From: Haloplanus sp. GDY1
GTDB taxonomy: Archaea > Halobacteriota > Halobacteria > Halobacteriales > Haloferacaceae
Direction: 5' to 3'
Length of the DNA: 64,000 nucleotides
NCBI RefSeq assembly: GCF_023703775.1
Contig: NZ_CP098515.1
Coordinates: 62,001 to 126,000 of the forward strand
Both the position numbers and the translations under genes were made by a program. Below are positions 28,605 to 53,549 of the stretch, piece after piece. Below the pieces are notes generated by a model. That model made no database searches and was not told where the DNA came from. It saw only the letters and a program-made list of their open reading frames with translations. Positions within the stretch are counted from its first letter, which is position 1. Every line of letters starts with the position of its first letter.

Positions 28605-29570
28605 TTACGTTGTTTTCTCTCCATTCTGTGCGAATTCATCTGGCGAACAGTCTTTCCACAGCCCTTCATACGTTCGGTGGCAACCACTACAGAGAGTGAT
28701 CAGATTTGAGGGTTGATTCATACTGTCGTAATCAACGGATTCGGTAGACACGAACTCGTGAGCAGGTCTAATATGGTGAACGTGAAGATCGCGGGGCGTT
28801 TCATTTCGATTGATCTTGCAGATCCGACAGGCGTAGTTATCACGTTGAATGATCTCTTCACGTCGTGAACGCCAGTTAGAGCCATAGTAACAATTCCAAG
28901 AATGCCGAAGGGAACTCCGAGGTTCATATCCAGCCAATCGGATGGCTCTATTCCACGAATCAAAGTATGCCCAGTAAGTAGCGCTCGAGAACTTTCCCAA
29001 TTCGTCCATCTGGGTGGTTGAAGGGACGTGTCCGAGTTCGTCGTGCAGTCGTTGGAGTTCAGCTAATAGACTCGCTAAATCAATTTCACGCACGACAGTA
29101 GGCTCGTAACCAGCCTCGGTAAGCGCCCGATTCCAACTCCCGAATCGCGTGGTAAACGTCCTGATACTATGTTTGCTGAAGCGAACAATATCTGGTGCTG
29201 TTGGCACGTGTCCAAGTTCCTCGTATAGAGAGTGAATCTCGGGCAGCAAGTCTTCTTTCGTGAGGCTACGGTCACGTTGTGGTTCATAGCCTGCCGCGCG
29301 AAGAGCATCTGCCCACGTCCCATAATAATGCTGGTAGGTCGTCACACTAAACACACCACAGTCATCCATCTCATCGGGAGTAGGGGGACGACCAATGTCG
29401 TCGTTCAGTTGATTTATAACTGAGATTAGGGTGCTTCGCTTCTCGTCCTCTGTATGATATCGGAAGTGAATACGAGCACCGTGCTTCGAATCAAAGACAT
29501 CGTCACACTCCTCAACAGGACATGCCGACGAAGCCATGCCGTCACGAGAGTCGGGAAAGAGTCGCCCCAT
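28605..29570 (-). CDS. HNH endonuclease with homing-endonuclease-associated repeats
   Basis: 322 residues if started at ATG 29570 (29537 is also possible). The N-terminus has a C2H2-type finger (CPVEECDDVF, then HGARIHFRYH). Three repeats of about 55 residues follow, each ending SWNRAI/ALTEAGYEP and containing a LG(H/R)xPT turn: the homing-endonuclease-associated repeat seen in HNH and intein proteins, which binds DNA. The C-terminus is an HNH nuclease: YACRICKINRN, LHVHHIRPAHEF and LITLCSGCHRTYEG. Its promoter region is covered by origin repeats. It is AT-richer than its neighbours, suggesting transfer. Probably a free-standing homing or mobile nuclease. Confidence 0.8.
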   Translation of the reverse strand: MGRLFPDSRDGMASSACPVEECDDVFDSKHGARIHFRYHTEDEKRSTLISVINQLNDDIGRPPTPDEMDDCGVFSVTTYQHYYGTWADALRAAGYEPQRDRSLTKEDLLPEIHSLYEELGHVPTAPDIVRFSKHSIRTFTTRFGSWNRALTEAGYEPTVVREIDLASLLAELQRLHDELGHVPSTTQMDELGKFSSATYWAYFDSWNRAIRLAGYEPRSSLRHSWNCYYGSNWRSRREEIIQRDNYACRICKINRNETPRDLHVHHIRPAHEFVSTESVDYDSMNQPSNLITLCSGCHRTYEGLWKDCSPDEFAQNGEKTT

Positions 29571-29708
29571 TGAGTGTGATTGGCTCGGAATAGTATATGA
29601 AGGATTGGAGGAGGTAAGAACCCGATCAGGAGGCGGAACGATGTGATCCGACATATTCCAGACAGACGGTGAAGGAATTCTAATATCGGCCACGCGCGAG
29701 TCAGGGAT

Positions 29709-30071
29709 ACACATCGATAGAGGAGTACTAATCCAATCGCTACATATCGATAGAGGGGTGTGCGGAAGCAAAGCAAGCTGGCGAACACATCGATAGCGGT
29801 GCGTGTGCTGCGAAGCAGGCGGTAGATGATTGAGTTCGAAACGTATCGAGACGAGTGATGATATGCCGTCGGTCAGCGGGCCAGTTCGCAGAAGCGGTCA
29901 ATCCAAGATCGCCGATTTCTACCGATAGAGTCGATATCAAGTTCGAATACACATCGATAGAGGTGTGTGACGTGCGTCTGACGCAAGCGGGCTCTATGAA
30001 CTCGGCACTCGAGGTGGATATCGAAATGTGACGCGGTAACATCCGCCTGATACACATCGATAGAGGGGTGT
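29709..30071 (+). repeat. Origin repeats, cluster 1 (five copies)
   Basis: Copies of ACACATCGATAGAGGGGTGT or close variants are at 29709-29728, 29742-29761, 29785-29804, 29949-29968 and 30052-30071, all in the same orientation. They fill the gap beyond the stop of orc1/cdc6. Their repetition on both sides of an initiator gene is how archaeal origin recognition boxes are arranged. Confidence 0.85.
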
Positions 30072-32310: not shown

Positions 32311-33174
32311 TCAAACATCGGTCTCTGTAAACGCCGAAAGCTTCGTCATTCGTGTCTCTGCGAGTTCCCGACGAATCTTCGACCGATCCCAGCCTAACGG
32401 CGACAGCAAACTTTCGACAGCTCTGACGAGTCCCGTCTCATAGTACGACGGATCGTACGACTCGAACTCCTCGTGAGCCAACGCGACCCGGTCTCGTGAG
32501 GATTTCTCGTCGTCGACGACCACGTACGCGATGTCCTGTCCGGGGAGGACAGCGAGGTCGTGATCGCGAGCCCGCTTCAGCGCCGCTACGTTTTGCGTGT
32601 TCTGCGTGTACCCTTCGAGCGGCTTGGAGACACGATTCCGTTCGACGAGTTCCGCAACAGGCACCGTTCCAGCGTGGAGCCGCTCGATGGCATCCTGGAG
32701 ACAATCAAGCACTGCGTCTGGCGACCGGGTCGCGTCGAACCGTTCGAGACAGTTCCGCTGGACGGCCTCGATGAACGGCGGTGTCGAGCGCTGTCGAGCT
32801 TCGATCCCTCTGATCTTGAACTCGTCTTCGCCGGTGACCTTCCCGAAGTACTTCGTCAACGCGCCGGCGTCGCTATCGCGCTGTGGGACGAACGCCACCC
32901 AGTCATAGTAGGCTTCGTGTTCGAGCCGAATCTCGACGCGTTCCGTGATCTCCATTGCGAGCGTCACGAGGTCCTCCCGTTTCTCGTCGTCGACATCGGA
33001 ATCCGGTGTCACCCAGATGGAGTCGACGATGCCGTGAACGACCCGCCAGCCGCCGGATTCCAGCTGTCGTTTCGCCTCCAACAGAATCTCGCGAGCAAAC
33101 GCGTTGATCGCCTCGTGGATTCGGGCTTTCTCGCGGTCGCCCTCGTCGTGCTGTTCGAGCGTGTAGGTTAACAC
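32311..33174 (-). pseudogene. C-terminal fragment of a family B DNA polymerase
   Basis: The frame gives HEAINAFAREILLEAKRQLE, then GGWRVVHGIVDSIWVTPD (the region of the polymerase YGDTDS motif, here HGIVDS), EDEFKIRGIEARQRSTPPF and KPLEGYTQNTQNVAALKR, all features of the haloarchaeal PolB palm and thumb. The exonuclease and most of the palm are missing. The best start is a GTG at 33174, so the gene has lost its 5' two-thirds. A fragment of a replication gene next to an origin suggests decay of an older plasmid backbone. Confidence 0.7.
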
Positions 33175-34051: not shown

Positions 34052-35638
34052 GTGGTTTCACGATTTATCTCGGAGCGCGCGTTGGCTGAAACATATGATA
34101 CAAATACTGGGTGGAAAACAGTCAACCAGTATCGGGAAGCGATCCGACTTGCCGAGGAACAGCCAGATCTGGCCCGAGCTGAGATTGCGCGACGAGTCAA
34201 TCGCTCCCCTAGCGCAATCCGTGGTTGGTTGGCCGAAAATAAGACCCCACCTGTAGTGAAAGGACTTGAGACCGCTCAGAAACGAGGGTGGCTAGATATA
34301 GAGTCAGATTCAGAGACGTTTCGCGTATTTAACCAACTCGTTGCTTGGATCTTTTCTGGTGGAGGTATCAATCAGGCGGCCTTCGTGCCGACATTTTCAG
34401 CTGATGATCAACTCACTGTTACCACGCTTACTCATCTACTGAAGTGGGTGAATATACCCTTCCACCTCCGGACGCACAACGAAGACAACCGACATATCGA
34501 AGTCATCCCCGCGGAAGACGCTTCCGTGTTTGGTCGTGTTCTAACTGCACTTGGTGCACCATGTGGTCCTAAAGCAAGACAAGATTCGTTGACATTGCCG
34601 AAATACCTCCACTCAGTAGAGGAGGAGTTTCAACGAGATTTTGCACGGGTATATCTGCTGAATCGCGGAAGCTTTCTTTCGAACCAACGAACGGTTGGCA
34701 CGTACTTACAAGAAAGTTCAGAGAAAGAATACAAACAAAGTCTCCGAGATCTCTTCGCGTCAATTACTGCAGGATCCGCTACACTCGGCAGTCAGCATCA
34801 AGTATGGGTTTCTGCTGATTCTGTTCGTGATCTTGCTGATGGATCTCCTCTCAGATCGGCACTCGCAACACGAGTAGCCTTCGGTACACTCACGCCGCCA
34901 AGTAATCGAGCATTTGCATCAACGTTCCGCCAGCAACGAAGCCCTGGCGGCTATCAGTACCTGCAATTGTACAGGCGAGCGCTAGAAAGTGATTCTTCAA
35001 GAGGAAAGCTTGCCAACCAACTTGGACTACCTGAAACGACAATTCAAAGCTGGCGTCGAGGAAGTAGCCCGTATGTTCACAATGCGCTGTCTACCGCTCA
35101 TGAACGCGGCTGGCTAACTGCCTCTTCTGATGATGACATTCCCTTAGCACTAACAGCTATTCTTGCTTGGATATTTTCTCAAGGATCGATTCGAGCTGAA
35201 TCATACTATCCCATTTTTCGGCTTAGTTCTCCTGATCAACGGTCGTACTTCGAAACGATTGCTGATGACCTTGATCTCTCATATTCGATCATTCGATCGG
35301 AAGATCCCACTCGTTCAACCGAGGTTCGACCTATAGAGGACGGCACAGTTCTCGGACGAGTTCTCCATATTCTTGGAGCACCACTCAGTGAGAGTACTCA
35401 ACAGATATCACTGCCACCTGTGTATCTTTATCATTATCCAGAACATGCACACCGATTTATTACGATATGGATGAAACAGCATAGTGATCCAAACGGACAA
35501 CTAACGCTCACCGTTCCGCCACGCCTTGGAAAGCCATTTGCTGATGCTCTGGAGGCTCTAATGACCGAGCAACTCTCCTGGTCAACAACACGGAACTCGG
35601 AGTGCGAGATCGGGATACTCCCGAAAGAGAATCCGTAG
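34052..35638 (+). CDS. Internally duplicated HTH / LAGLIDADG-like protein
   Basis: 528 residues made of two similar halves. Half 1: HTH (RAEIARRVNRSPSAIRGWLA), LVAWIFSGGGINQAAFVPTF, then VFGRVLTALGAPCGPKARQD and a Pro-Lys-Tyr turn. Half 2: HTH (KLANQLGLPETTIQSWRRGS), ILAWIFSQGSIRAESYYPIF, then VLGRVLHILGAPLSESTQQI. The pattern matches LAGLIDADG homing-endonuclease domains preceded by HTHs, but the LAGLIDADG catalytic acid is replaced (Gly in half 1, Gln in half 2). It may therefore bind DNA without cutting. Codon use is AT-richer than its surroundings. GTG 34052 is the likely start. Confidence 0.6.
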   Translation: MVSRFISERALAETYDTNTGWKTVNQYREAIRLAEEQPDLARAEIARRVNRSPSAIRGWLAENKTPPVVKGLETAQKRGWLDIESDSETFRVFNQLVAWIFSGGGINQAAFVPTFSADDQLTVTTLTHLLKWVNIPFHLRTHNEDNRHIEVIPAEDASVFGRVLTALGAPCGPKARQDSLTLPKYLHSVEEEFQRDFARVYLLNRGSFLSNQRTVGTYLQESSEKEYKQSLRDLFASITAGSATLGSQHQVWVSADSVRDLADGSPLRSALATRVAFGTLTPPSNRAFASTFRQQRSPGGYQYLQLYRRALESDSSRGKLANQLGLPETTIQSWRRGSSPYVHNALSTAHERGWLTASSDDDIPLALTAILAWIFSQGSIRAESYYPIFRLSSPDQRSYFETIADDLDLSYSIIRSEDPTRSTEVRPIEDGTVLGRVLHILGAPLSESTQQISLPPVYLYHYPEHAHRFITIWMKQHSDPNGQLTLTVPPRLGKPFADALEALMTEQLSWSTTRNSECEIGILPKENP

Positions 35639-36371: not shown

Positions 36372-39323
36372 TTAGTTGTCGCGCCGGGTCGCGAGCAGCG
36401 CAGCCGCGAGCAGCGCGATGACAGCGACGATGGCACCGAAGCCGGGGCCGCCACCCGAGGTGGGCGTCGGCGTGTCAGTCGGCTCAGCCGTCGCCGTCGC
36501 CGTCGGTTCGGGCGTCGCCGTCGCCGTCGGCTCCGGCGTCGCCGTCTCCGTCGGCGTCGGTTCCGGCGTCTCCGTCGGTTCCGGCGTCGCCGTCTGGACG
36601 TTCTGGACGATCTCGACGTCAACTATGTCCGTGTTGTAGCTGTCGTCGGCCTCGAGGATGTACGAGCCGGTCTGCACGTCCTCGAGCTCCATCGAGACCA
36701 TCCAGGTCCCGTCGAAGGACCATTCCTCGGTCGTCGTCAGCGCGACCGAGTCGCCGTCCTGCGTCAGCAGTTCGACGGTGATGGAGTTGTCGTCGGGGCG
36801 CAGGTTCGTGCCACCCTCGGCGACCAGCGTGTCGTCAACGCCGACCGGGTTGACACCCGAGGCTTCCATGCCTTCGGGGTAGACCGTGTTGATGGTCGTC
36901 TGCGCGTCCGCGTAGCGGAAGCGCGTCGTGACCATCCGGTCGTCGCTCGCGACTTCCTCGGTCGTCTGATCGAGGATACGCGAGCGGACCTGCTGGCCCG
37001 TCAGACCCGAGTTGTCGTTGTCCAGGTTCGCGACGAACTCCTGGAAATCACCGCTGGACTGGCCAGCGACGTCACCGAAGCTACCGTCACCGAAGTTGTC
37101 GTCACGACCGGGGATCAAGACGTGGGCACTGACCTCGCCCTCTGCGATGCCACTGCCACCCGCCGACGTGGAGACCGTGAGGTCGTCCTCGTCGAACGTG
37201 TTGTCGTCGTCGACGCTGACCGTGTGGAACGCCGTGTTCCCACGCTCACCGACGAAGACGATGTAGGCCTGCTGCGAGCCGAAGGCCGTCCCGGACACGT
37301 TGACCGAGTTGTCCTCGACGGCCACCTGGCCGCCGACGGTCTTGAAGCTCGCCTGCAGTTCCGTGTCGAGCACCCGCAGCGACTTCTGGGAGCTCGTGTT
37401 CGTGTTGAAGTTCGACGTGCTGATCGTCTCGGGCGGCGTCGCGCCGATACCGCCGGCATCAACGACGCCGAGCCGGTAGGTCCCGGGCTGGGACAGCTCG
37501 TTGTTACCGGGCTCGTTACCCTGCGAGAGGATCACGTCTTCCTCTTCGAACGTGCCGTCAGCATCGACGGTCAGCGTGTCCGAGCCGTCGATGTCGAGCA
37601 GCTGGTAGTCGTTCTGCCGGCGGACGTAGAAGGCGACCTCCTCGATGCCCTCGGAGGCCGTCCCGTTCACGTCCACCTCGCTCCCGACAACGTACGTGTT
37701 GCCGGGCGACTCGATCGAGAGGTCACCCTGCTCGATGGAGATCGACTGATCGTCGACCTCAGCTTCTTCGGTCGGGGTCGAGCCCAGCTCGAAGGGCACG
37801 AGGTAGCCCTGCTCGTACAGGTACATGTCGATGTCGGAGTCATCGAGGTACTGCGTCTCGATCTGACCGACACCGAGGCCCGTGCCGTCGTCGATCGTCA
37901 CGGTCGCGTACGCGTAGTCGACCGTGCCGCTGGGCGTGGTGCCGCGCGGGACAGCCGTGTTGCCGCCGTCGGTGACGACACCGACCTCGTCGGTGTCACC
38001 GACGTTGCGGAAGATCCGCTGGGCGTCCTCACCGGAGAGGCCGTCGCGGAAGTCGTCGGATTCGATCAGGACCGTGTGCTGGTCGCCAGCGTCCGAGCCC
38101 TGGATCTCGAAGCGGACGTCCTCACCGCGGACGACGTCGTCCTCGTCGATCTGGAGGCTCGGGTCGTCGTCGCCGGTGACCGTGATGGTCGTCGACTGGG
38201 ACGCCTCACCGAAGCCGAGGTCGTCCGTGCCGGCGAGCGAGATGGTGTATGTGCCCGTGCCAGTGTCCGAGAGGTCAAGGTCGTAGCCGACCTCGTTGGA
38301 GCTGATGTCCTGGCCGTTGACGTCAGTGCCTTGGTCGCTCTCGCCCTTGACGGCGTCGTTAGCGACGTCGCCGGTCACGTCGAGACCGGTGTCGTCCTCG
38401 ACCGTCAGTTCGAGGTCTTCGGCTTCCTCGTAGTTCCAGGCACCGACGACGGTGAGTTGACCGGCGCCGGACTGGTCGCTCTGACCCTCGCCGACGGAGC
38501 CGCCGGCGATGTCCTCACCGTTCGTGTTGAGCACTTCGAGCGTGGTGACACGCGGCGTGGTGACGACAACACCGTCGGCGCCAGGCGTGCCATCAGTGGT
38601 GTAGCGACCGGTCTCCTGGCTCTGCGGGACGTCCGGGAGGTTGAGGGGGACACCCTCAGCGTCGCCGGCCGTCTTCAGGAGTTCCTCGCCAGCGAGGTCG
38701 CCACCGAGCTGGAGGCCGGACTCGCCCTGGAAGACGGTTGCACCGGGGAGGATGAACCCTTCACCGTCCGCGGTGTTGAATTCACCCGTCCCGTCCTGGT
38801 TGGCGGCACGGTTGTCACCGTCGGGGTCAACCTCGCCGTCATCACCGTTGTCCCCGTTACCATCATCTGCTTCGATGGTGACGGTCGTACTGACGGTGGT
38901 GCTGGAGGTGCTGCCTTCGATGAAGGCTTCAGCGTCAACCTGCTGATCACCAGTTGCTGCGTCCGAAGCCACCTCGAAGGTGACCGTCGTGGTGAGAGTC
39001 TCGCCAGGCTGGATGGGACCGCTGAGGCCGTAGAGGACGCTCTGCGGTTCGCCTCCAAGACCAGATGCCCCATCGCCTTCGATACTCGTTGCTTCGACGC
39101 CGCTGGGCGTCGTGAACTCGATACGGCCTGCGTCACCGGCCTCGTCGCCGGTATTTGTATAGTCGTACGTTACCGTGAACGTGTCTCCCTGCTGTGCGCT
39201 CCCAGCGTCATCAGGGGCACTAAGGCCAACCTGTGGCGCGGCAGCGGCAGGGGCAGAGACCGCGAAGATGGACAGCACCATGAGGGCTGCCATCGTAACT
39301 GCTCTGATTTGCTTTCGTGTCAT
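36372..39323 (-). CDS. S-layer-type surface glycoprotein
   Basis: 983 residues. Signal peptide (VTMAALMVLSIFAVSAPAAAA), then a CARDB-like domain (VGLSAPDDAGSAQQGDTFTV... up to about residue 155) and an acidic spacer. The remainder follows the haloarchaeal S-layer glycoprotein layout: ATVFQGESGLQLGGDLAGEE onwards, Ig-like repeats, a Thr/Pro/Glu-rich O-glycosylation stretch (TPTETATPEPTATATPEP) and a PGF-CTERM tail (GGGPGFGAIVAV, helix, RRDN) for archaeosortase processing. Several N-x-S/T sites occur. The CARDB domain ahead of the S-layer part is unusual. It follows the 39336 gene by 12 bp, so they share a transcript. Confidence 0.85.
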   Translation of the reverse strand: MTRKQIRAVTMAALMVLSIFAVSAPAAAAPQVGLSAPDDAGSAQQGDTFTVTYDYTNTGDEAGDAGRIEFTTPSGVEATSIEGDGASGLGGEPQSVLYGLSGPIQPGETLTTTVTFEVASDAATGDQQVDAEAFIEGSTSSTTVSTTVTIEADDGNGDNGDDGEVDPDGDNRAANQDGTGEFNTADGEGFILPGATVFQGESGLQLGGDLAGEELLKTAGDAEGVPLNLPDVPQSQETGRYTTDGTPGADGVVVTTPRVTTLEVLNTNGEDIAGGSVGEGQSDQSGAGQLTVVGAWNYEEAEDLELTVEDDTGLDVTGDVANDAVKGESDQGTDVNGQDISSNEVGYDLDLSDTGTGTYTISLAGTDDLGFGEASQSTTITVTGDDDPSLQIDEDDVVRGEDVRFEIQGSDAGDQHTVLIESDDFRDGLSGEDAQRIFRNVGDTDEVGVVTDGGNTAVPRGTTPSGTVDYAYATVTIDDGTGLGVGQIETQYLDDSDIDMYLYEQGYLVPFELGSTPTEEAEVDDQSISIEQGDLSIESPGNTYVVGSEVDVNGTASEGIEEVAFYVRRQNDYQLLDIDGSDTLTVDADGTFEEEDVILSQGNEPGNNELSQPGTYRLGVVDAGGIGATPPETISTSNFNTNTSSQKSLRVLDTELQASFKTVGGQVAVEDNSVNVSGTAFGSQQAYIVFVGERGNTAFHTVSVDDDNTFDEDDLTVSTSAGGSGIAEGEVSAHVLIPGRDDNFGDGSFGDVAGQSSGDFQEFVANLDNDNSGLTGQQVRSRILDQTTEEVASDDRMVTTRFRYADAQTTINTVYPEGMEASGVNPVGVDDTLVAEGGTNLRPDDNSITVELLTQDGDSVALTTTEEWSFDGTWMVSMELEDVQTGSYILEADDSYNTDIVDVEIVQNVQTATPEPTETPEPTPTETATPEPTATATPEPTATATAEPTDTPTPTSGGGPGFGAIVAVIALLAAALLATRRDN

Positions 39324-48127: not shown

Positions 48128-48517
48128 ATGAAGACCACACGGCACGCGACCTACAACCTCAACTACCACATAGTGTGGTTGCTGAAGTACCGACAGTCGG
48201 TACTTGTCAAGGAGGTCGCCGACCGTGTGCGAGACATCCTCCACGAAATCGCCGACGACAAGGGCTTAGAGATTATCGACCTGACCGTTCAGCCCGACCA
48301 CATCCACCTGTTCGTCAGTAGCCCACCGAAACACGCGCCCTCACTTCTCGCCAACTGGTTCAAGGGTATCTCCTCGCGGAAATACAACCACCGCTACGCC
48401 GACAACGAGGGCGAGAAGATTCGATGGGCGCGGGGCTACTACGCAGGGACGGCGGGGCACGTATCCAGCGAAACGGTACAGGACTACATTCAGCGTCACG
48501 GGGAGGGCGACCAATGA
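48128..48517 (+). CDS. tnpA: IS200/IS605 transposase TnpA (Y1 HUH)
   Basis: 129 residues with the HUH motif LTVQPDHIHLFVS and the catalytic Tyr in TVQDYIQRHGEG. This enzyme cuts and joins single-stranded element ends at the subterminal hairpins. It overlaps tnpB by ATGA at 48514. Length matches the family. Confidence 0.93.
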   Translation: MKTTRHATYNLNYHIVWLLKYRQSVLVKEVADRVRDILHEIADDKGLEIIDLTVQPDHIHLFVSSPPKHAPSLLANWFKGISSRKYNHRYADNEGEKIRWARGYYAGTAGHVSSETVQDYIQRHGEGDQ

Positions 48518-49752
48518 CCGAACTCACCAAGACGCTGGAACTGAAACTGGTAGACCCGAACGCACACAAACGGCGGAAACTCCGCGAGACACGAGACGCC
48601 TACCAACAGGCCCTTCGAGATGCGTTCGACGCTGGTAGCACCACGCAAACCGAAGCGAACGACGTGGTGGTCAACTACGACCTGTCGGGGTACGCGAAAA
48701 ACGCCCTCAAGAAGTACGTCCCGCAGTTGACGACAACCTACAATGCGGGCGAACTTCACGATGACCACCCTGTTCGGTTCACCAACGAGGGGCTACGCCT
48801 CAACCACAAGCCCGAGAACACTATCGAGTGGTACGTCAAAATCCCGCACCACGAGGACCACCACCTCTGGATGCCAGCACAGCCGAATCCCAACCAACGG
48901 GACTGGTTGGAAGCGTTGAACGCTTGTGACGCGGAGATGGGTGAGAGTCGGCTGTTCCAGCGGAACGGGACGTGGTATCTCCACGTCACCGCCACCCGCG
49001 ACGTGGAGGATTGTTCCGAGGCGTCCACCGATGAACAGACGCCTATCGGAGTGGACATTGGAGAAGCGTCACTTGTCACGGTGTGTCACCGCGACGACCA
49101 CGGTTCTCCGACCCGCCCCGAACTATGGGCTGACGAAGGCAAAACCGTTCGTCGTCTACGCAAGACCTACTTCACCGCTACGCGACGGCTTCAAGAACGC
49201 GGAAGCAACCGTATCGCCGAATCGTTCGGCGACGACCTGTGGAACCAGATAGACGACGTGTTCCACCGCGTCACCCGCGAAGTCGTGGAGTACGCCGAGT
49301 CCGTCGAGAATCCCGTACTGGTGCTGGAAGACTTGACGTACATTCGGGAGTCGATGGACTACAGCGAGTATATGAATCGCCGTCTTCACGGATGGGGGTT
49401 CGCCAAACTCCACGCACAGATACGGTACAAGGCCGTCGAAAAGGGGATTCCCGTCGAGACGGTGAATCCGCGTAACACGTCGAAGGAGTGCCATGCGTGC
49501 GGTGAAGTCGGATATCGTCCGAAACAGGCGACGTTCAAGTGTACGAACGACGACTGCTGGATGGGTGAGTACCAAGCGGACGTGAACGGGGCGATAAACA
49601 TCGCAGACCGCTACCTCAGCGGAGAGAGTCCTTCCAGAGAACACGAGAACGACGATGACTCGGCTGAGGATGGGGCGCATTTGACCGCGCCACAAGACAG
49701 CCAAGCCGATGCTGAAATCCAGCAGTTGACGCTTGGAACGTATGCGTCTTGA
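48514..49752 (+). CDS. tnpB: TnpB RNA-guided nuclease (IS200/IS605)
   Basis: 412 residues from ATG 48514. The RuvC-like acidic residues are present: TPIGVDIGEASLV (Asp), VLVLEDLTYI (Glu) and YQADVNGAINIA (Asp). The zinc finger is CHACGEVGY, then CTNDDC. TnpB of this family is guided by an RNA from the element's right end to cut target DNA, favouring element retention. The coding 3' end runs into the right-end RNA region. Confidence 0.93.
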   Translation: MTELTKTLELKLVDPNAHKRRKLRETRDAYQQALRDAFDAGSTTQTEANDVVVNYDLSGYAKNALKKYVPQLTTTYNAGELHDDHPVRFTNEGLRLNHKPENTIEWYVKIPHHEDHHLWMPAQPNPNQRDWLEALNACDAEMGESRLFQRNGTWYLHVTATRDVEDCSEASTDEQTPIGVDIGEASLVTVCHRDDHGSPTRPELWADEGKTVRRLRKTYFTATRRLQERGSNRIAESFGDDLWNQIDDVFHRVTREVVEYAESVENPVLVLEDLTYIRESMDYSEYMNRRLHGWGFAKLHAQIRYKAVEKGIPVETVNPRNTSKECHACGEVGYRPKQATFKCTNDDCWMGEYQADVNGAINIADRYLSGESPSREHENDDDSAEDGAHLTAPQDSQADAEIQQLTLGTYAS

Positions 49753-52304: not shown

Positions 52305-53549
52305 CTACTCGCTCACCGCTGACGCGGTTCGCTCCTTGAGGGTAGGGCTTCCTGCTTCTATGACGCGCTTTGCAGATACCGAATCGGTATCCACAGGAAG
52401 CGCAGTCTCCACAGGCGTTCGTTCGGAGTGTCCCACTCCTACTTTTTCGATACCGCGAGAAAGGATGTTCCACGCCGCGTTCGCATCCCTGTCCGTCTCA
52501 AACCCGCAGGCAGGACAGGAGTGTTCCCGAACCCACAGCGGTTTCTCCGTCGAGACGCCGCACGACGCGCACTCCTTGGTCGTGCCGCTCGGGTTGACCG
52601 CGACGAAGTGCGTTCCCTCTCGCTTGCACTTGTATTCGAGCAACGAGAGGAACGTCCGCCACGCGGCAGATGCCGTGTTGCGGCTGTTCGACGGCGACTC
52701 CATCATCCCCTTCACGTTCAGGTCTTCTACCGCCACTAGGTCGTACTCCCGAGCGTAGTAGTTCGAGAGCTTGTGCAAGAAGTCGCGGCGCTTTCGCTTG
52801 AGGGTGGCGTGGCGTTCAGCCACGACCTGCCGTTGTTTCTCCCAATTCGCGGAGCCGTTTTCCTTCCGCGAGAGGTCGCGCTGTTCGCTTTCGAGCTGTT
52901 CGCGCTCGTCGGAGAGGTCTGGCGACCCGACCGCCGTGCCGTCGGTGTCGTGAGCGTACGTGAGAATCCCCACGTCGATGCCGACGCACTTCTCGGGGTT
53001 TTCGGGCTTCGCGGGTGGTTCGCGGTCCATTTCGATGCCGAAGGTGGCGAACCACTCGCCCGTCGGTTCCTTCTTGAGCGTGACCTGCTTGAGTTGGGCG
53101 TCGTCGGGGATGGCACGGTGGAGCCGAATCGGTATATCTCCGAGTTTCGAGAGTGATAGGACAGTCTGACCGCCCCTCTTGTCGAGCTTGAAGCCAGACT
53201 GACTATACGTGAAACTGCGGAACTCCCGTGGTGGCTTCCATTTGAGTTGGCCGACGCCGTATCCGTTCTCCTTGAGCTTGGAGAGTCCTTTAACGTTGTC
53301 GAACAACCGTTCAACGACGGTTTGGAGAACTTTCGAGTACACGTCCGAGAGGTCGTCCCACCACGTCTTGAGGTCGGGAAGTTCCGACCGCAGGGTAGTC
53401 ATGGACGGCAATTCGCCGTGGTTCTCTCGGTACTCGTTGAGGCGGTAGCGCGTGTGGTTGTACAGTTGCCTACAAATGTCTCGGTGGCGGTCCAACTCCT
53501 CGCGGTGGGCGTCGGACGGCGTGAGACGGTACTTGTAGGCGTAGTACAT
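52305..53549 (-). CDS. tnpB: TnpB, IS1341 type
   Basis: 414 residues, apparently intact. RuvC residues: CVGIDVGILTYAHD (Asp), YDLVAVEDLNVKGM (Glu) and ETDRDANAAWN (Asp). Zinc finger: ECASCGVS, then HSCPACGFE. There is no tnpA partner, as usual for IS1341-type units. It starts 3 bp after an RHH gene with which it must be co-transcribed. Related broken copies lie at 35890, 56055 and 61082. Confidence 0.92.
   Translation of the reverse strand: MYYAYKYRLTPSDAHREELDRHRDICRQLYNHTRYRLNEYRENHGELPSMTTLRSELPDLKTWWDDLSDVYSKVLQTVVERLFDNVKGLSKLKENGYGVGQLKWKPPREFRSFTYSQSGFKLDKRGGQTVLSLSKLGDIPIRLHRAIPDDAQLKQVTLKKEPTGEWFATFGIEMDREPPAKPENPEKCVGIDVGILTYAHDTDGTAVGSPDLSDEREQLESEQRDLSRKENGSANWEKQRQVVAERHATLKRKRRDFLHKLSNYYAREYDLVAVEDLNVKGMMESPSNSRNTASAAWRTFLSLLEYKCKREGTHFVAVNPSGTTKECASCGVSTEKPLWVREHSCPACGFETDRDANAAWNILSRGIEKVGVGHSERTPVETALPVDTDSVSAKRVIEAGSPTLKERTASAVSE

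Follow-up and report, generated by a model that had tools for sequence, protein, structure and literature searches.

The protein encoded at positions 34052-35638 (forward strand) of the window, the term used here for the whole stretch of 64,000 nucleotides that was analyzed, is probably a domesticated, cleavage-dead homing endonuclease that binds DNA and regulates genes for surface proteins. Its open reading frame is intact, from a GTG start at 34052 to a stop at 35638, and the 528 residues consist of two copies of one 260-residue family, phrog_14115 (PHROGs profile match, E 2.6e-100 in two stretches), whose full-length profile is matched by each half; this is the single strong PHROGs match of the protein, and the function listed there is unknown. 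A BLASTP comparison of one half with the other gives an E of 1e-23 (31% identity over 194 residues) and, as originally predicted, both contain an HTH, a WIFS(G/Q)G(G/S)I segment, and a GRVLxxLGAP turn; Pfam recognizes the HTH alone (CENP-B_N/HTH_28). The original prediction aligned one segment in each half with LAGLIDADG, which is correct for motif 1, but it missed a second, more eroded motif in each half (RDFARVYLLNRG with Arg205 in the N-terminal half and RFITIWMKQHS with His477 in the C-terminal half). Because of this second motif, each half is, in the predicted models, a complete two-repeat saddle, and the whole protein has four LAGLIDADG-like repeats; the predicted count of two HTH and two saddle domains is therefore right. 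The features are as follows.

34052-35638, forward strand: tandem protein with HTH and degenerate LAGLIDADG domains, 528 residues, GTG start
34052-34870, forward strand: N-terminal unit, residues 1-273, predicted HTH and full LAGLIDADG saddle (AF2 model, Foldseek, VIA)
34127-34279, forward strand: HTH of the N-terminal unit, residues 26-76 (Pfam CENP-B_N/HTH_28; model helices)
34337-34369, forward strand: LAGLIDADG motif 1 of the N-terminal unit, LVAWIFSGGGI, with Asp replaced by Gly103 (codon 34358; alignment)
34532-34573, forward strand: GRVLTALGAPCGPK segment, common to the LonB-intein endonucleases as RFFVALGAPVGKK (alignment)
34634-34669, forward strand: degenerate LAGLIDADG motif 2 of the N-terminal unit, RDFARVYLLNRG, with Asp replaced by Arg205 (alignment; model helix 191-205)
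34892-35635, forward strand: C-terminal unit, residues 281-528, predicted HTH and full LAGLIDADG saddle (AF2 model, Foldseek)
34961-35098, forward strand: HTH of the C-terminal unit, residues 304-349 (Pfam matches, model)
35159-35191, forward strand: LAGLIDADG motif 1 of the C-terminal unit, ILAWIFSQGSI, with Asp replaced by Gln377 (codon 35180; alignment)
35453-35485, forward strand: degenerate LAGLIDADG motif 2 of the C-terminal unit, RFITIWMKQHS, with Asp replaced by His477 (alignment)
36372-39323, reverse strand: S-layer glycoprotein gene of the HVO_2072 family (TIGR04216, E 1.6e-224), proposed target

The AlphaFold models, in which the halves were folded singly and which were built with relatives from named genomes, have pLDDT 91.6 and pTM 0.90 for the N-terminal half and pLDDT 90.5 and pTM 0.88 for the C-terminal half. 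In both, a helical HTH at the N terminus is followed by two α-β repeats that form the full two-repeat saddle of the LAGLIDADG homing endonucleases. The near-top Foldseek matches of the halves are I-Tsp061I, the TliVMA intein, WhiA, I-DmoI, and PI-SceI, and VIA-align gives Z scores of 17.5 with the TliVMA intein (over 184 residues), 15.2 with I-Tsp061I, and 14.0 with WhiA in its complex with RNAP. PDB sequence searches produced nothing useful.

The catalytic positions were compared in an alignment of 101 sequences comprising the family and the LonB inteins. At the motif-1 position, the family has Gly in 79 sequences, Ser in 6, Arg in 4, Gln in 3, Ala in 2, and His and Cys in 1 each, with an acid in 0 of 96; at the motif-2 position, it has Arg in 87, His in 4, Tyr in 2, Pro and Trp in 1 each, and one gap, with an acid in 0 of 95. 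The LonB inteins have at the same positions Asp in 4 and Asn in 1 (motif 1) and Asp in 4 and Glu in 1 (motif 2); the exception is the intein of Nanobdella aerobiophila (L113:4620-6041, forward strand), which has Asn and Glu where the others have two Asp. The window protein has Gly103 and Arg205 in its N-terminal unit and Gln377 and His477 in its C-terminal unit, Gly103 and Gln377 replacing the Asp of the LonB-intein GDG motifs. The claim that the metal-binding acid is Gly in one half and Gln in the other is thus upheld by the alignment, in which no family member has an acid at either position. Judged from sequence, the tandem protein is a predicted cleavage-dead homing endonuclease, the acids of both active sites being gone from each half.

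Outside the haloarchaea, the profile of the single-copy family finds the inteins of LonB proteases in an Archaeoglobaceae MAG and in N. aerobiophila, and the reverse search from a LonB-intein endonuclease recovers the family. Alignment of the two with hhalign (Prob 98.2, E 2.9e-14) covers 219 columns and includes the HTH; other inteins in the phylum search gave weaker matches that start only after the HTH, which makes the LonB-intein endonucleases the nearest acid-bearing endonucleases found by these sequence comparisons. The LonB inteins share with the family the order HTH, LAGLIDADG 1, LGAPVGKK, LAGLIDADG 2 and a significant profile match, but they retain the acids (Asp, or Asn/Glu in one) and are embedded in the splicing domain of a host gene, whereas the family proteins are free-standing, lack splicing blocks, and are shorter past motif 2. 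Descent of the family from a LonB-type intein and descent of both from a common ancestor are compatible with these observations. Relatives were recovered from genome contigs by searches with the family alignment; a single-sequence scan of the genome contigs found no relatives, nor did alignment scans of viral contigs.

A close parallel is WhiA (DUF199), a bacterial regulator of sporulation and cell division in which a LAGLIDADG saddle without metal-binding residues is joined to an HTH and which acts as a transcription factor (PMC3781837). The window protein resembles it in having a degenerate saddle joined to an HTH (Z 11.2-14.0 with the WhiA structures), but the HTH of WhiA is C-terminal, whereas that of the window protein is N-terminal, ahead of the saddle; by this domain order, the window protein is not a WhiA, and the WhiA family is absent from its Pfam and NCBIfam matches at the thresholds used. 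It differs also in being archaeal, tandem, and tied to pilin and S-layer genes.

Family matches are present in 176 of the 391 Halobacteria genomes sampled. A survey of 57 loci, with flanks of up to 5 kb counted in kilobase bins, places a pilin open reading frame in the first kilobase upstream of the family gene at 54 of 55 loci; the second upstream kilobase has further pilins at 16 of 53, and all other bins have a pilin at 0-3 loci (0-5 percent in the downstream and far-upstream bins). At most loci, the pilin and the family gene are divergent. The pair also occurs on plasmid pR1SE2, twice in one archaeal genome outside the Halobacteria, and in the virus SNJ2 (gp9 and gp10). The product of SNJ2 gp10 (L002:5194-5658, reverse strand), annotated as hypothetical, matches the model of the type IV pilin N-terminal domain, and orf4-orf10 of this virus are described as a validated lysogeny/lysis regulatory region (PMC13107129). 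With its relatives beside pilus and surface-coat genes, the protein is probably a gene switch.

At most loci, about 310-355 bp separate the pilin from the adjacent putative regulator, and this gap contains two conserved blocks. The pilin-proximal block is a structured RNA leader whose arms may be able to pair with the ribosome-binding region; the structure is hidden in a sequence-only alignment and was seen with a 7-sequence seed and a covariance model. The covariance model built from this seed has 45 hits in 970 kb, every one of them at the pilin position (e.g. L071:4661-4803 and L078:4658-4798, both reverse strand), and no Rfam family matches the leader. Of its 33 pairs, 27 are changed on both sides, and the covariation score of 0.386 compares with 0.173 in shuffles, none of 500 of which scored as high, and with 0.06-0.09 when the partners are slid, although it should be noted that the alignment was fitted to the structure and is biased in its favor. 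A pilin is beside the leader at all 30 loci examined, and 20 of 116 genomes, all in one family (Natrialbaceae by its named members), have the leader.

The strength of this covariation, the possible pairing with the ribosome-binding region, and the existence of LAGLIDADG maturases (bI3 maturase, Z 10.1) raise the alternative that the protein is maturase-like, its saddle binding structured RNA, which for single-copy members would be the leader of the pilin mRNA, and controlling translation. This is unlikely, given that the leader is limited to the Natrialbaceae and SNJ2 while the protein family is far wider, that a regulator is missing next to 12 of the 30 leaders, that searches of the tandem loci found no such leader, and that the protein has an HTH of the DNA type. 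The second block, on the regulator side, was also considered as an RNA structure, but its consensus energy is 0, and it was therefore treated as DNA. It extends over about 85 bp (TTTCA..CTGATAATCAG..TACAGCACC..CTTGAA) upstream of the pilin TATA (e.g. L051:4864-4950 and L177:1691-1774, both forward strand) and is kept at 12 of 12 pilin loci without an adjacent regulator, indicating that it belongs to the pilin promoter; it is also a candidate operator. In some genomes (G004, G064, G096, and G104), no regulator was detected although the pilin, leader, and element seem to be present. The tandem loci were searched for this promoter element as well as for the leader, and neither was found. Both observations weigh against the regulator reading.

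The tandem branch differs from the general trait of the single-copy members in having no pilin neighbor at any of its seven loci. In four of the seven genomes (G000, which contains the window on its contig C2 of 154,567 bases, and G135, G239, and G173), the next gene encodes a TIGR04216 S-layer glycoprotein, and a fifth locus (G394) has an S-layer gene fragment at the contig end; in the other two (G392 and G080), no S-layer gene is directly adjacent. S-layer genes are multi-copy, and their orientation relative to the tandem gene varies. The two loci without a directly adjacent S-layer gene and the varying orientation weigh against the proposed regulation. The chance of an S-layer gene within 2 kb in four of seven is about 1.5e-8, a value that assumes about four copies per genome and ignores shared descent, the seven genomes being from one genus and not independent. 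Members of phrog_14115 (SNJ2 gp9 and its relatives), the same family that each half matches, are single copies beside a pilin; in the window, by contrast, two copies are fused and the neighbor is an S-layer gene, the best candidate for the target of the tandem.

The window lies in the genome of a haloarchaeon whose genus is probably Haloplanus, given a Cdc6 region 92% identical to that of a Haloplanus rubicundus plasmid; of 12 genomes of this genus, 7 carry a full-length tandem orthologue. In the tree, the N-terminal halves form one group and the C-terminal halves another, each with 100/100 support; on this sequence evidence, the tandem arose by one old duplication and fusion. All seven have a GC content (0.485-0.561) and GC3 (0.40-0.56) below those of their own loci. 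The AT-rich codon use that the original prediction took as a mark of acquisition is therefore a property common to the orthologues of an old duplication and does not indicate recent import. In Natrinema thermotolerans, a 625-codon frame (L065:1236-3110, forward strand) fuses two different paralogues, and by sequence this pair arose independently of the window tandem.

Three further explanations were weighed. The protein might serve plasmids and viruses in their replication or maintenance, as the family gene of SNJ2 adjoins an Orc1/Cdc6 gene, a Cdc6 gene is 2.5 kb from the tandem gene in the window, and many relatives are on plasmids. However, no homologue of the window Cdc6 was found around the six other tandem orthologues, and a Haloplanus rubicundus plasmid that is 92% identical to the window in the Cdc6 region has no such gene in the stretch examined; the constant neighbor is the pilin, on chromosomes also, and this role is improbable. 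A protein still active as a nuclease or recombination factor through other residues, mobilizing or swapping pilin and S-layer genes, seems no easier to accept. The LAGLIDADG fold, the multi-copy S-layer genes with their changing orientation beside the tandem, and the free-standing LAGLIDADG_2 genes (PF03161) reported in Haloferax glycosylation islands (PMC5867893) are in its favor, but both catalytic acids are missing in every member, and the LAGLIDADG_2 endonucleases of haloarchaea, although also encoded outside introns and inteins, are a separate family with intact acids, no match to the family profile, and no pilin beside them (0 of 7). A decaying remnant of a selfish element without function would account for the eroded second motif and the patchy presence in 7 of 12 genomes but is very improbable, because a reading frame of more than 500 codons is intact in seven genomes at 46-54% identity, with many invariant residues.

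The fold, the dead catalytic sites, the conserved HTH, the strict gene association, and the element in the pilin promoter fit a WhiA-like DNA-binding regulator. The original prediction of a former homing nuclease now used as a DNA-binding protein holds for the LAGLIDADG fold and the loss of the acids; DNA binding is suggested by the fold, HTH, and gene neighborhood, and transcriptional control by the neighborhood and the promoter element. In such a mechanism, each half would keep the DNA-recognition apparatus of an HTH-bearing endonuclease of the LonB-intein type, namely the HTH and the two-repeat saddle, and these would together bind to a specific site in the DNA and regulate the transcription of the neighboring surface-structure gene, which would be the type IV pilin for the single-copy family and the S-layer glycoprotein gene for the tandem branch. 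With its units duplicated, a single chain could occupy either two neighboring sites or one extended site. The pilin leader RNA and the promoter element make the regulator idea directly testable.

A broader and more tentative proposal, which may or may not hold in full, is that archaea have independently made regulators of surface structures from an HTH-bearing endonuclease of this type: a single-copy form for type IV pilins on chromosomes, on plasmids, and in a pleolipovirus, accompanied in the Natrialbaceae by a structured mRNA leader that is itself new, and a tandem form, made by fusion, whose targets have shifted to the genes of S-layer glycoproteins. WhiA is the one transcription factor derived from a homing endonuclease found in the literature surveyed, and the archaeal proteins would be a second case, with a likely intein-related source. 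The control of archaeal pili and the S-layer is poorly understood, and a candidate regulator would be provided for both, together with a function for unannotated genes of the virus SNJ2 and the vesicle plasmid pR1SE2.

PADLOC gave a weak match to the window protein over 29 residues only, which is not counted as evidence of a defense role. Elsewhere in the window, a gene at 28605-29771 (reverse strand) that adjoins the Cdc6 gene encodes three homing-endonuclease-associated repeats (PF18780) and an HNH domain, positions 32311-33174 (reverse strand) encode a C-terminal fragment of a family B DNA polymerase, and TnpB-family genes are present at 48424-49752 (forward strand) and 52305-53549 (reverse strand).
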